Assembly (NCBI RefSeq): GCF_003014735.1
Contig: NZ_PYAX01000005.1
Location: forward strand, 558,001-622,000
Direction: 5' to 3'
Origin: Saccharothrix carnea
GTDB taxonomy: Bacteria; Actinomycetota; Actinomycetes; Mycobacteriales; Pseudonocardiaceae
DNA length: 64,000 nucleotides
Shown: positions 2,396 to 33,081 of the stretch, piece after piece
Numbering within the stretch: position 1 is the stretch's first letter
Layout: the number at the start of each line of letters is the position of its first letter
Notes under the pieces: model-generated
Told to the model about the DNA's origin: nothing
Seen by the model: only the letters and a program-made list of their open reading frames with translations
Database searches by the model: none
Translations under genes and position numbers: made by a program

Positions 2396-2731
2396 CCCTG
2401 CTCGCCGCCCAATCCCTCGCTGCCTAGTCCTCGCCGCCCCCGTCCACACGGCCCCGTCCGTGCTCGCTGCCCGGTCCCGCTCGCCGCCCAGTCCGTGCTC
2501 GCCGCCCAGTCCGTGCTTGTCGCCTGGACCGCGCTCGTCGCTGCTCCCGCTCACCGTCCCTGCTCGCCGCCCAGGCCTGCTCGTCACCCAACCCCGCACC
2601 TGCACCCCGCGGGTCGGTCGACCGCGCCCCCCGGACTCCCCGCCGGTCTCCGATCGCCGGATTCCCGTCGAATCCCGATCCCCGCTGCCGCCGCCCGCCG
2701 TCCAGGTGGGGGTGGAGCGTGTGGTGGGCGG
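2396..2731. repeat. Low-complexity GC-rich tract with decayed 18 bp repeats
   Basis: No credible gene. The plus strand is C-rich up to about 2690 and then turns G-rich. Degenerate copies of an 18 bp unit (CTCGCCGCCCAGTCCGTG) are clearest at 2488-2525. The tract joins directly to copy A of the 92 bp dispersed repeat. Open frames here encode only Pro/Arg-rich low-complexity peptides. Confidence 0.6.
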
Positions 2732-2823
2732 TCGGGGGTGGTTTCGGCGGCTCCGCTGGTTTTCAACCGAGGTGCGAGAACAGTGTTTCCGTACATTTTC
2801 CGGCGATGATCACCCCATCGTGT
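2732..2823 (+). repeat. 92 bp dispersed repeat, copy A
   Basis: Begins TCGGGGGTGGTTTCGGCGG and ends ATCGTGT. By hand alignment it matches copy B (16726-16817, opposite strand) at 88 of 92 positions and copy C (31881-31971) at about 79. It contains an imperfect hairpin at 2772-2794 followed by ATTTTC. It sits between katA and the esterase, which converge, with the GTGT end nearest the esterase stop (141 bp). Confidence 0.85.
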
Positions 2824-2964: not shown

Positions 2965-4032
2965 TCACGCCGTCTCGGGGATGTCCTGCCTGGTGTTGGC
3001 CAACGCCAACCCGGTGCGCAGCGACCCGACCGCCTCCGCCACCGCCTCCCGGAACACGCCACCCACGCCGAGGATGTTCGCGTACCCGTGGAACAGCCCC
3101 TCGTACCGCCGCAACACCACCGGCACGCCCTGCCGCGCCAGCTTCTCCGCGAACGCCTCACCCTCGTCCCGCAACGGGTCGAACCCGGCCGTCGCCAGGT
3201 ACGTCGGCGGCAGCCCGCTCAGGTCCTCCGCCAGCAGCACCGACAGCCGCGGATCGGTGTGCGCGTCGCGTGACGGCGCGTAGTGGTCCAGGAACCAGTC
3301 CATCTTCTCGTCGGTGAGGAAGAACCCCCTGCCGAACAGCTCGCGCGACCGCCGCCGCACCGACGCGTCCACCGCCGGGTAGAACAGCAGCAGGAACACC
3401 GGCTTCACCTCACCCGCGTGCAACGCCGTCACCGCCGCCAGGTTCCCGCCCGCGCTGTCACCGCCCAACGCGATGCGCCGCGGGTCGATCCGCAGCTCCT
3501 CGGCGTGCGCCACCGCGTACTCGAACGCGGCCTGCGCGTCGTCCGCCGCGGCCGGGAACGGGTGTTCCGGCGCGAGCCGGTAGTCCGCTGACAGCACCCG
3601 CACCCCGCCCTCGACGGCGAGGAACCGGCACAGGTTGTCGTGGCTGTCCAGGTCACCGCTGACCCACCCGCCACCGTGGTAGAAGACCAGCAGCGGCGAC
3701 CCGGCGGCCAACCCGGTCGGCTCGTAGAACCGCGCCCCGACACCGTCCAGCGACAGCGAGCGCACCGCCACGCCGCCGATCACGGGACCGCACACCAGAG
3801 CGGTGCTGCGGCTCAGGGCCAGGCGGTTGGCCGCGGGCGTGGTCGTCTGCCAGTCCTCGCCGCTGAGCTGTTGCAGCCTCAGCAGGAGCTGGGCTTCCGG
3901 GTGGAGCCGCTGGCCGTCCAGGGTGACGGGGCGACCGGCGATCAGCCTGCGCAGCGGCGCGGGCAGGCCGAACACGAAGCGCAGGGCACCGGCCAGGACG
4001 CCGGGAGGGATCGACTCGGCGAGCTTCGACAT
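2965..4032 (-). CDS. Alpha/beta hydrolase, HSL-type esterase/lipase
   Basis: A 355-residue carboxylic ester hydrolase of the hormone-sensitive-lipase family. It shows the oxyanion-hole motif HGGGW, the nucleophile elbow GGDSAGGN, the acid in FDPLRDEG and the catalytic His in GLFHGY. No signal peptide is seen, so it is probably cytoplasmic and acts on short acyl esters. The ATG at 4030-4032 is preferred because the frame upstream overlaps the divergent reductase and lacks family character. The frame remains open to 4155. Substrate unknown. Confidence 0.88.
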   Translation of the reverse strand: MSKLAESIPPGVLAGALRFVFGLPAPLRRLIAGRPVTLDGQRLHPEAQLLLRLQQLSGEDWQTTTPAANRLALSRSTALVCGPVIGGVAVRSLSLDGVGARFYEPTGLAAGSPLLVFYHGGGWVSGDLDSHDNLCRFLAVEGGVRVLSADYRLAPEHPFPAAADDAQAAFEYAVAHAEELRIDPRRIALGGDSAGGNLAAVTALHAGEVKPVFLLLFYPAVDASVRRRSRELFGRGFFLTDEKMDWFLDHYAPSRDAHTDPRLSVLLAEDLSGLPPTYLATAGFDPLRDEGEAFAEKLARQGVPVVLRRYEGLFHGYANILGVGGVFREAVAEAVGSLRTGLALANTRQDIPETA

Positions 4033-16148: not shown

Positions 16149-16616
16149 ATGGCGGAGTTGAAGGCGCGGTTGCAGGCGGACCTGACGGCGGCGATCAAGA
16201 ACCGGGAGACGGTCCGGGCGGGCGCGCTGCGGATGACGCTGGCCGCGCTGACCACCGAAGAGGTCTCCGGCAAGAGCGCGCGTGAGCTCACCGACGACGA
16301 GGTGCTGAAGGTCATCACCCGTGAGGTGAAGAAGCGCAAGGAGGCGGCGGAGGCCTTCGCCGGCGCCGGGCGGACCGAGCAGGCCGAGTTGGAGCAGGCC
16401 GAGTCCAAGGTCCTGGAGGCCTACCTGCCCGCCCAGTTGGACGACGCGGAACTGGCGACCCTGGTCGACGCCGCGATCACCCAGGTTTCCGAGCAGCTGG
16501 GGGAGAAGCCGGGCCAACGGCAGATGGGCCAGGTCATGAAGATCGTCAACGCCCAGGTCGCGGGCCGCGCGGACGGCGGCCGAGTCGCCACCGCGGTCAA
16601 GGCCAAGCTGGCCTGA
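16149..16616 (+). CDS. GatB/YqeY domain protein
   Basis: A 155-residue YqeY-family protein, homologous to the tail domain of the GatB amidotransferase subunit. It begins with the conserved helical segment ELKARLQADLTAAIKNR and ends with the basic helix RADGGRVATAVKAKLA. Free-standing YqeY proteins are suggested to bind tRNA or assist amidation, but the role is unsettled. The ATG at 16149 is 64 bp from the divergent metallophosphoesterase. Copy B of the 92 bp repeat begins 109 bp after its stop. Confidence 0.9.
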   Translation: MAELKARLQADLTAAIKNRETVRAGALRMTLAALTTEEVSGKSARELTDDEVLKVITREVKKRKEAAEAFAGAGRTEQAELEQAESKVLEAYLPAQLDDAELATLVDAAITQVSEQLGEKPGQRQMGQVMKIVNAQVAGRADGGRVATAVKAKLA

Positions 16617-16725: not shown

Positions 16726-16817
16726 ACACGATCGGGTGATCATCGCCCGAAAATGTACGGAAACACTGTTCCCGTACCTCGGTTGAAAACCAGCGGAGCC
16801 GCCGAAACCACCCCCGA
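16726..16817 (-). repeat. 92 bp dispersed repeat, copy B
   Basis: The same element as copy A but on the minus strand (4 differences in 92). Its internal palindrome at 16755-16777 is the best of the three, with 10 of 11 arm positions paired, followed on the minus strand by ATTTTC. It lies between the convergent yqeY and ponA2 genes, GTGT end towards yqeY. Confidence 0.85.
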
Positions 16818-17330
16818 CCGCCCACGACCCCGCAGCCCCCGCCGCCCCCCGCTGACACCGCCCCACCGCCCACTGCCGACCCCAGCGCGACGCTGACGAC
16901 ACCGGGCCGACGAGCCAACGAGCACCGGCGGCCCGAGACGCCTCGCACTCGCGCTGCCCGCACCGCCGCGCCGGAGTGGTGTAGCAGGGCTGGCCGGGGA
17001 TGCGGCGGCGCTGGACCGCCTGGGACGGCGGGGTGGGTGTAGTCGGACCGGCCAGGGGGTGCGGCGGCGTTGGACTGCCCGGGGCGGCGGGGTTGGTGCG
17101 GTTGAAGTCCCCGCGGGGTGCGCTGGGTGGATTGGTCGCCGGGGCCCTGGAGTCGCTGCGCTGGGGTCGGTGCGCGGGGCCGTGGGGTGCGGTGGGCGGG
17201 CTGGTGCGCCGGCGCCGTGGGGTTGGTGCGGTGGATGGCAGGAGGGTGCGAAGGGCGCGCTGGGCCGGGGGCGGTGGCCGAGCGGTGAGGGCCCGGGACT
17301 GGACGCGGCGGCGGGGGTGGTGTGGTGCCG
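16818..17330. other. GC-rich low-complexity tract beside repeat copy B
   Basis: About 510 bp with no credible gene. The plus strand is C-rich to about 16970 and G-rich after. Open frames on both strands give only Arg/Pro/Gly-rich peptides. It lies between repeat copy B and the 8 bp microsatellite and may be the 3' untranslated region of ponA2. Confidence 0.5.
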
Positions 17331-31639: not shown

Positions 31640-31880
31640 CCCGGCTGTCCGTCCGGCCAGGTGTGTCCCGCCCGCCGTGGTGTGTCCGCTCGACGGTGGC
31701 GCAGTTCCGGCTCGCTCCTGGTGGGACCGACCGCTCCTGGTGCGGGGCCGGTGGCGATCCCGGCCGTCGATGGTCGGCGGGCAGGGCCAGCGGATCGTGG
31801 GTCGGTGGCGGTGAAGGTCGAGAGGCTGCGGTGGCGGTGCGTGGGTGGTTTGGGTGGGGGCGGCTCCGGGGGTTGGAGGG
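31640..31880. other. GC-rich tract between the HxlR gene and repeat copy C
   Basis: 241 bp without a gene. The plus strand becomes increasingly G-rich towards copy C, as in the tract before copy A. Confidence 0.45.
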
Positions 31881-31971
31881 TCGGGGGTGGTTGAGGCGCT
31901 CCGCTGGTTTCTAACCGAGGTGTGGTAACGGTGTTTCCGTACATTTTCGGGCGGAGTTCACCCGATTGTGT
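31881..31971 (+). repeat. 92 bp dispersed repeat, copy C (91 bp)
   Basis: About 12 substitutions and one 1-base deletion relative to copy B. The hairpin region is 31920-31942 and is followed by ATTTTC. Its GTGT end is 3 bp from the stop of the convergent sliding-clamp gene. The 1-base deletion shows the element is not read as protein. Confidence 0.83.
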
Positions 31972-31974
31972 TGG

Positions 31975-33081
31975 TCAGGGGGTCTGGCGGAGGGGGACGA
32001 CCAGGTAGGTCAGTTCGACGCCGTCGTCGCCGGCTTGGGAGGTCAGGACGGTGGAGCGGAGGCCGTCTTGGATCTTCAGTTCTACCCGGCGGCCGCTGAA
32101 GGCGCGCAGGGCGTCGGCCAGGTAGCGGGCTTGGAAGGTTTTGGTGACGCGGTTGCCGTCGATCGTGGCCTTGATCGACTCCTCGGACTCGCCGCTCTGC
32201 GGATCGCTGCCCCGCACGCGCAGCTCGCCGTCGTCCACCTGGATGGTGACCGAACCGTGTGGCCCGGCGTACGGGACGGCACGGCGGACCGCGCCGGCCA
32301 GCACATCGGCCTCCACCAACACCGTGCTGTCGATGACCGCCTCCAGCAGCTTCCGCACTCGATCGTCGGGGAACGGGGCCGCCAGCAGCGCCGTGCTCAC
32401 GCTCCCGCCCGCCCACGACAGGGCGATGCGGTCCGCGTCGGCGTGCACCGTGACCTCCGCCGCACGGTCCGGCTGCCTGGACGCCTCGGCCAGCACCACC
32501 GCCGGGGCCAGGACGTCCAGCTCGCCTGCCGGCACCCAGGGCAGCGAAGCGAACGCCATCCGATAACGGTCCGTGGCGATCAGCTCCAGCCGGCCGCCGG
32601 GGGCGCTGTGCATCCGGACGCCGGTGAACATCGGCAGCGCGTCGTCCTTGGACGCGGCGGAGGAGACCGGGGTCAGGGCGGCGGTCAGGGCGCGGGCGGG
32701 GATGGTGCCCAGGGCCGGTGGCAGCGGTGGGATGCCGGGGTGGGTGCTCAGGTCGAGCAGGGGCAGGGCGAAGCGGGCCGTGGACGTGCGCACGGCCAGG
32801 CGTGAACCCTCCACCACCAGTCTGACCTGGGGGTCTTCGAGGCTGCGGAGGGTATCGGCCAGCGGCCGGGCCGGGACCACCACCGCGCCGTCCGCGTGCA
32901 CGGTCGCGGCACGGGTCAGGCGGACGGCGTGCTCGCGGTCGCTGCCCGCCAGCTCGATCCCGGCACCGTCGGCACGCAGGACCAACCCGGCCAGCACCGG
33001 GTCGTACACCCTCGTCGGCAGGAGGCGGGCGACATCGGCGGCGGCGGTGGCCAGCTCGGCTGTGGTGGCGGTCAGGTCCAT
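31975..33081 (-). CDS. Second DnaN-like sliding clamp protein
   Basis: A 368-residue protein with the three-domain beta-clamp plan: an N-terminal domain (DLTATTAELATAAADVARLL), a middle domain with PMFTGVRMHSAPGGRLELIA then TDRYRMAF, and a C-terminal domain with FQARYLADALRAFSGRRVEL and the ending VVPLRQ in place of the usual MPMR/VPVR. No dnaA, recF or gyrB is nearby, so it is an extra paralogue. It could replace the clamp for a specialised polymerase or be regulatory. ATG at 33079-33081. Confidence 0.85.
   Translation of the reverse strand: MDLTATTAELATAAADVARLLPTRVYDPVLAGLVLRADGAGIELAGSDREHAVRLTRAATVHADGAVVVPARPLADTLRSLEDPQVRLVVEGSRLAVRTSTARFALPLLDLSTHPGIPPLPPALGTIPARALTAALTPVSSAASKDDALPMFTGVRMHSAPGGRLELIATDRYRMAFASLPWVPAGELDVLAPAVVLAEASRQPDRAAEVTVHADADRIALSWAGGSVSTALLAAPFPDDRVRKLLEAVIDSTVLVEADVLAGAVRRAVPYAGPHGSVTIQVDDGELRVRGSDPQSGESEESIKATIDGNRVTKTFQARYLADALRAFSGRRVELKIQDGLRSTVLTSQAGDDGVELTYLVVPLRQTP

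Follow-up and report, generated by a model that had tools for sequence, protein, structure and literature searches.

MIRUs sit in operons, between a stop codon and the next start codon, and are known for overlapping stop codons and for keeping one orientation relative to transcription. They are described as actinobacterial tandem repeats of 46-101 bp at 41 dispersed loci (PMC3914561). The element described here, which is ~92 bp long and has 30 copies in Saccharothrix carnea, falls within the 46-101 bp range and likewise occupies tens of loci; unlike MIRUs, it occurs as single copies, lies between convergent genes in 16 of 30 cases, and has a C-rich tract behind it. A second family to compare is that of the REP and BIME repeats, which are tied to a RAYT transposase. 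REPs are short intergenic palindromes of 20-40 bp, for which roles in transcription termination and mRNA stabilization have been hypothesized (PMC3733652), and they usually exceed 100 copies, with alternating orientation in BIMEs (PMC2817692). Our element is also a short intergenic repeat but, unlike REPs, is ~92 bp long, has ~30 copies, and keeps mostly one orientation to the gene. With Rho-dependent terminators it shares a C-rich, G-poor region of little structure behind the gene. The rut sites of such terminators are degenerate and have no common 92-bp block, whereas here a conserved, repeated block lies ahead of the C-rich tract. Integron attC sites are of similar size and stand directly behind ORFs in one orientation, but the host genes of our element in S. 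carnea are scattered and unrelated, and the attC box pattern was not recognized by eye. None of the families considered fits on all features tested, and a search of open-licence papers by title and abstract turned up no description of the element.

Results

A dispersed element in S. carnea and its relatives

The window analyzed is a 64,000-nucleotide stretch of the S. carnea genome. It contains three 92-letter repeats, termed copies A, B, and C, whose coordinates and strands in a preliminary description were borne out for all three, as were the identities given there of 88/92 (A-B) and about 79/92 (B-C). In our alignment A and B match without gaps, B and C match at 79/92 with one gap, and A and C share 77/92 positions, also with one gap; the core GTGTTTCCGTACATTTT is unchanged in 3/3 copies. 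It is reading along the adjacent gene, on the other strand from that read previously, that is informative; this is the sense strand used throughout.

2732..2823, minus strand (gene-sense; the preliminary description gave the other strand): element copy A; host 2965-4032 (minus), gap of ~140 nt
2965..4032, minus strand: host of copy A, alpha/beta hydrolase (Abhydrolase_3), by Pfam scan
16726..16817, plus strand (gene-sense): element copy B; host yqeY 16149-16616 (plus), gap of ~107 nt
16149..16616, plus strand: host of copy B, YqeY-like protein, by Pfam scan
31881..31971, minus strand (gene-sense): element copy C; host 31975-33081 (minus), sliding-clamp-like
31975..33081, minus strand: host of copy C, DNA polymerase III beta-subunit-like protein, by Pfam scan

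Each of the three hosts has a convergent gene opposite it, and the profile match of copy C stops 1 nt short of the host stop codon. The gene at 31975-33081 has all three beta-subunit domains and adjoins an HxlR-type regulator; its product may be a second sliding clamp.

A blastn search with copy A against the whole S. carnea genome (8.9 Mb) gave 25 matches at E<=1e-3, far more than chance would yield. These 25 served to build a sequence-only profile, which gave 30 matches at E<=6.1e-6, beyond which lay eight weaker ones (E 0.011 to 4.6). This first profile matched 19/25 genus genomes at E<=0.01; copy number per genome ranges from 0 to 36. A broader profile of 53 sequences matched 22/390 family genomes at E<=1e-4, namely 20/25 genus genomes and a single genome in each of the genera g15 and g16; these counts are lower bounds, because filtering was stricter in this search and 10 candidates were scored per genome. 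Single matches in G031, G010, and G004 (E 0.010-0.025) were left uncounted, and a closer profile search of seven genomes at E<=0.05 gave seven matches in the g15 genome and one in the g16 genome. The preliminary description held the repeat to be a dispersed element, a view to be dropped if no further copies turned up in the genome or its relatives; 30 copies in S. carnea and matches in 20/25 genus genomes exclude that outcome. Five genus genomes are without a copy at E<=1e-4, and the element is therefore dispensable. Among the 74 stretches of named genomes that match a 17-base core exactly, the only actinobacterial ones are from Saccharothrix; the others come from scattered, unrelated taxa.

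For closer analysis we examined 130 copies in 11 genomes, which for the relatives are part of the matches: S. carnea (30/30), G003 (20/28), G030 (20/26), G024 (14/14), G009 (11/12), G022 (18/19), G002 (9/10), G025 (3/3), G006 (2/2), G021 (2/2), and G011 (1/1). The matched genomes G001, G005, G007, G008, G023, G027, G028, and G029 are outside this set. Four extents in G003 were taken from blastn and are shorter than profile extents.

In the draft genome G001, several copies fall at or near contig starts (C30:1-91, C32:2-50, C56:56-146, C267:52-140, C23:445-532, and C213:358-446). Short-read assemblies may break at the element or its C-rich tract, and copy counts in drafts may thus be low. In single-contig chromosomes, the copies listed tend to lie mid-record in G003 and G027, whereas in G030, and with less clarity in G009, they tend toward the ends of the record. 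This would be the pattern of a cluster near the replication origin.

Position and orientation relative to genes

With genes predicted by a codon-usage script rather than a standard annotator, the nearest gene on the P1 side (the gene-proximal end, described below) runs in sense for 26/30 S. carnea copies and for 112/130 copies in the 11 genomes. The host stop codon lies at -20..150 nt from 24/30 S. carnea copies and 91/130 overall; random placement in S. carnea intergenic DNA puts a fraction of 0.18 within that range (binomial ~4e-13). The remainder comprises 18/130 copies with no sense gene on the P1 side, as called by our script, and 21/130 with a sense gene whose stop is outside the range. 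Four S. carnea copies overlap the gene end and provide the last codons and the stop (...TIG*). Likewise, the last codons and stop of pepA come from the element in 11 genomes and from a remnant in G022, and pepA in element-free genomes has other terminal codons.

Copies in S. carnea are single, the closest two being ~5.5 kb apart. A promoter function is disfavored because 16/30 of them lie between convergent genes. Host proteins, as read, are scattered and unrelated (GroEL-like, TypA-like, and DNA-ligase-like, among others); a regulon was rejected on that reading, with three of the proteins also scanned with Pfam. Several copies are found at distances of 5-15 kb from one another and in opposite orientation. 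The idea that such inverted pairs flank modules was considered and set aside, since every copy follows its own gene and the orientations are explained thereby.

Anatomy of the element

Alignments give the sense order as P1 ACACGATCGGGTGATCAT, a variable stretch, P2 GTACGGAAACACTGTTACCG, P3 TCGGTTGAAA..., and then AACCACCCC. The modules of copy B are as follows.

16726..16743, plus strand: module P1 ACACGATCGGGTGATCAT, at the gene-proximal end (alignments)
16755..16777, plus strand: module P2, imperfect inverted repeat GTACGGAAACACTGTTCCCGTAC, overlapping the "core" of the preliminary description, on the other strand
16778..16798, plus strand: module P3, CTCGGTT... segment (alignments)

A second subfamily, assigned by eye to 16/18 copies read in G022 and to five S. 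carnea copies, retains P1, the P2 heart GAAACGCTGTTAT, and P3 CGTCGGTTGAAACAACGAGG around a different and longer middle. The place of P3 holds a different hairpin in g15 (CTGCT...AGCAG) and CCTCG...CGAGG in g16, a difference between genera that is drawn from few sequences. P1, like P2, is an imperfect inverted repeat. This would suit a DNA-bound factor, but by a rough estimate chance alone would yield palindromes this strong within 92 bp.

Searching with the P1 pattern and allowing <=1 mismatch gave 40 sites in the S. carnea genome versus 0 for the reversed control, and 13 in G004, a genome without a good copy. The loci that were read include copies or a degenerate copy, coding sites, and intergenic sites. 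Solo P1-like sites CACGATCGGGTGATC occur in DNA that our gene caller leaves intergenic, at L343, L349 (G031), L350 (G000), and L364 (G004; one mismatch), and are found also in genomes without good copies. P1 was possibly recruited from such a site, which would then be an operator bound by a regulator. At three loci of G038, a genome of genus g15 (L432, L434, and L436), similarity seems to extend beyond the hairpin into a common ribosome-site-like stretch and an ATG; the frames after that ATG have low third-position GC and a noncoding look.

RNA structure

Conservation of the repeat at the DNA or RNA level, as proposed in the preliminary description, is supported. Of the 25 blastn loci, 13 were scanned against Rfam, with zero matches at gathering scores. 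Compensatory changes, which the preliminary description had suggested looking for, did not appear. RNAalifold on 25 copies gave 5 pairs with zero double changes. Swap tests gave negative results for both hairpin-like regions examined: the arm-swap test detected no covariation in 113/130 copies (89 of one subfamily and 24 of the other, one of the latter mis-anchored), and the P3 test found native pairs no better than swapped ones in 120/130 copies (p 0.96; at least one mis-anchored). Fold z-scores for 48/130 copies averaged -0.88 on the sense strand and -0.84 on the antisense strand. By region, P1 shows a modest gain in folding over its shuffles (120 copies, mean z -1.26), and the middle and P3 are barely better than shuffles (z -0.39 and -0.47). 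A structured RNA was rejected as a candidate: RNAalifold, z-scores, and swap tests revealed no conserved fold within the genus.

Hairpins at gene ends with and without the element

For each gene end, the 110 nt that follow the stop codon were scored for their best 40-nt hairpin. The median for 91 hosts was -14.5 kcal/mol, versus -29.8 kcal/mol for 96 element-free convergent ends (p 9e-15) and -20.0 kcal/mol for 91 co-directional element-free ends (p 1e-7); scores below -20 kcal/mol were reached by 20% of hosts versus 73% of the convergent nulls. Because the element fills part of the scored stretch, two controls were run, one normalized to shuffles (median -0.53 versus -2.79, p 2e-5) and one matched for spacer, with 42 hosts (-15.9 versus -22.6, p 0.003).

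The same genes were also compared across species with (21) and without (52) the element. For pepA, yqeY, and the esterase together, p was 2e-8 in 120 nt and 5e-5 in 250 nt, values that overstate independence because the species are related. By gene, hairpins with versus without the element scored -12.0 (11 genomes) versus -25.7 (13) for pepA, -17.1 (9) versus -27.2 (16) for yqeY, and -16.0 (1) versus -31.8 (23) for the esterase, for which 21/23 element-free genomes have a hairpin below -20. In this comparison G011 pepA was dropped (stop not found), G032 had no esterase match, and the P1 remnants at G022 pepA and G002 yqeY were scored as element-free.

Element and hairpin do coexist at some ends. 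Five of 24 S. carnea hosts have a hairpin below -20 kcal/mol together with the element, among them yqeY of copy B, where a hairpin of -23.9 kcal/mol stands ahead of the element; at copy C a strong hairpin separate from the element is absent. In 42 hosts the spacer measures 45-150 nt, and over a quarter of these have a strong hairpin inside it. As to the features of intrinsic terminators, a strong hairpin is scarce at hosts, and a U-run is absent, by eye, from the sense consensus. On the side of the neighboring convergent genes, 24/40 ends score below -20 kcal/mol versus 4/40 for hosts; that these neighbors more often have hairpins of their own favors one-way use of the element, a comparison confounded by spacing.

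A C-rich tract behind the element

Pooled over 30 S. carnea copies, the 50 nt after the element have a sense-strand composition of C 0.56, G 0.19, and T 0.04; after copies in other genomes the values are C 0.53, G 0.22, and T 0.07. The C-rich tract follows most copies; its bias starts at the element end and fades over 150-200 nt. The spacer between stop codon and element has C 0.38 and T 0.17, and 33 element-free gene ends have C 0.37 and T 0.16. Several copies besides A have no C skew in the first 110 nt. The tracts in the window are as follows.

2690..2731, minus strand: short C-rich tract after copy A, ~30-40 nt and weak; full 100 nt C37 G39
16818..16960, plus strand: tract behind copy B, rich in C and poor in T (C57 T3 in its first 100 nt), with an approximate far boundary
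31780..31880, minus strand: tract behind copy C, C-rich (C58 T8 in 100 nt)

Behind the yqeY element of G028 (L203) and G024 (L208), the tract consists of short imperfect tandem units, such as CCACCCCCCGACCGCC, which suggests slippage.

Inheritance and movement

Across 68 pairs of copies that have the same host in different genomes, median identity is 0.75 for the element and 0.65 for the 95 nt behind it, the level of unrelated flanks; copies are thus retained and flanks are not. Same-host copies are more alike than others in every genome pair that has them, although often with few pairs, and identity within a genome is about that of distant same-host copies. Inheritance in place and spread are both needed. 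In a check for concerted evolution among copies with a known ortholog, the nearest neighbor is the ortholog in 20 cases, a same-genome paralog in 26, and another copy in 17.

The gene end of copy A has the element in one genome of 24: it is absent from 23/23 relatives scored and from the 20 relatives' ends that were read, and the element therefore spreads. At the yqeY gene end it is present in 9/25 genus genomes, S. carnea included, and the gene hosting copy C has it also in G003 and G030. The 11 hosts in G009 are common to none of the other genomes examined, according to a blastp grouping that misses some true pairs, for example yqeY. At the ends of G022 pepA and G002 yqeY, P1 alone remains; these look like remnants.

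Discussion

On balance, we favor the reading that the 92-bp repeat serves as a module at transcript 3' ends, read in sense after the stop codon and replacing a strong GC hairpin: a dispersed, polar, factor-dependent terminator, perhaps one that loads Rho. From its position and orientation, the scarcity of strong hairpins, the C-rich tract behind most copies, its retention at certain gene ends across diverged species, and its presence at different gene ends in different species, we infer termination by the element. It would replace the strong GC hairpin typical of most element-free convergent gene ends. A factor would recognize the conserved modules P1 ACACGATCGGGTGATCAT, P2 GGAAACRCTGTTA, and P3 TCGGTTGAAA and, once bound, could end transcription through a DNA roadblock or an RNA pause site. 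The C-rich, G/T-poor tract may act as a rut-like loading region for Rho, and copies may have spread by transposition-like insertion or by recombination.

The main rival is a nonautonomous MITE- or REP-like element with biased insertion behind stop codons and no role in termination, which we regard as rather unlikely. Under it, hairpins were removed by the insertion or by later deletion, and copies persist at a harmless site. The variation from 0 to 36 copies among genus genomes agrees with such an element, as do the G009 hosts, all 11 of them private to that genome in the (incomplete) blastp grouping, and the restriction of copy A at its gene end to one genome of 24. Its two ends show a weak inverted match by eye, GGGTGRT / AACCACCC, but the match is internal and off the conserved boundary, and the flanks of filled and empty ends (three genes) are too diverged for a target-site duplication to be read. 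Two further points tell against neutrality: copies with the same host keep their sequence and their flanks do not, and, as an argument, loss of the sole terminator between two convergent genes should be costly unless the element substitutes for it.

Sense orientation and position would also suit an RNA element of the 3'UTR, acting in stability, processing, or small-RNA release, in which a protein or RNA binds conserved linear motifs of the mRNA tail. The weak folding of P1 (mean z -1.26, 120 copies) and the P3 hairpins of different sequence in two other genera point the same way, but there is no covariation within the genus, the middle and P3 fold barely above shuffles (z -0.39 and -0.47), and the scarcity of hairpins is left unexplained; we consider this reading improbable. 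Highly improbable, in our judgment, is a DNA site for a chromosome-organizing or fork-barrier protein (Ter/Tus-like, or a nucleoid factor) that is tolerated at gene ends only. The imperfect inverted repeats of P1 and P2 would fit it, as would close P1 matches outside elements, some intergenic and some in genomes without good copies. Palindromes this strong are, however, roughly what chance would place in 92 bp, and neither the fixed orientation to the gene nor the sense-strand C-rich tract is explained.

If the favored reading of a terminator is extended, the repeats might form a mobile family of sequence-specific, polar, factor-dependent terminators that moves between gene ends, replaces hairpins, and sometimes gives the stop codon, with genome-flavored modules coevolving with a trans-acting factor that occurs in only a few genera of a single actinobacterial family. 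We put this forward tentatively and hold it to be possible rather than probable. To our knowledge, how transcripts end in high-GC actinobacteria without U-tract hairpins is not settled. Related species with or without a copy at the same gene are ready-made natural experiments. Should termination prove to be its role, the stop signal would be carried by a dispersed element, and actinomycete engineering would gain a compact, hairpin-free terminator part.
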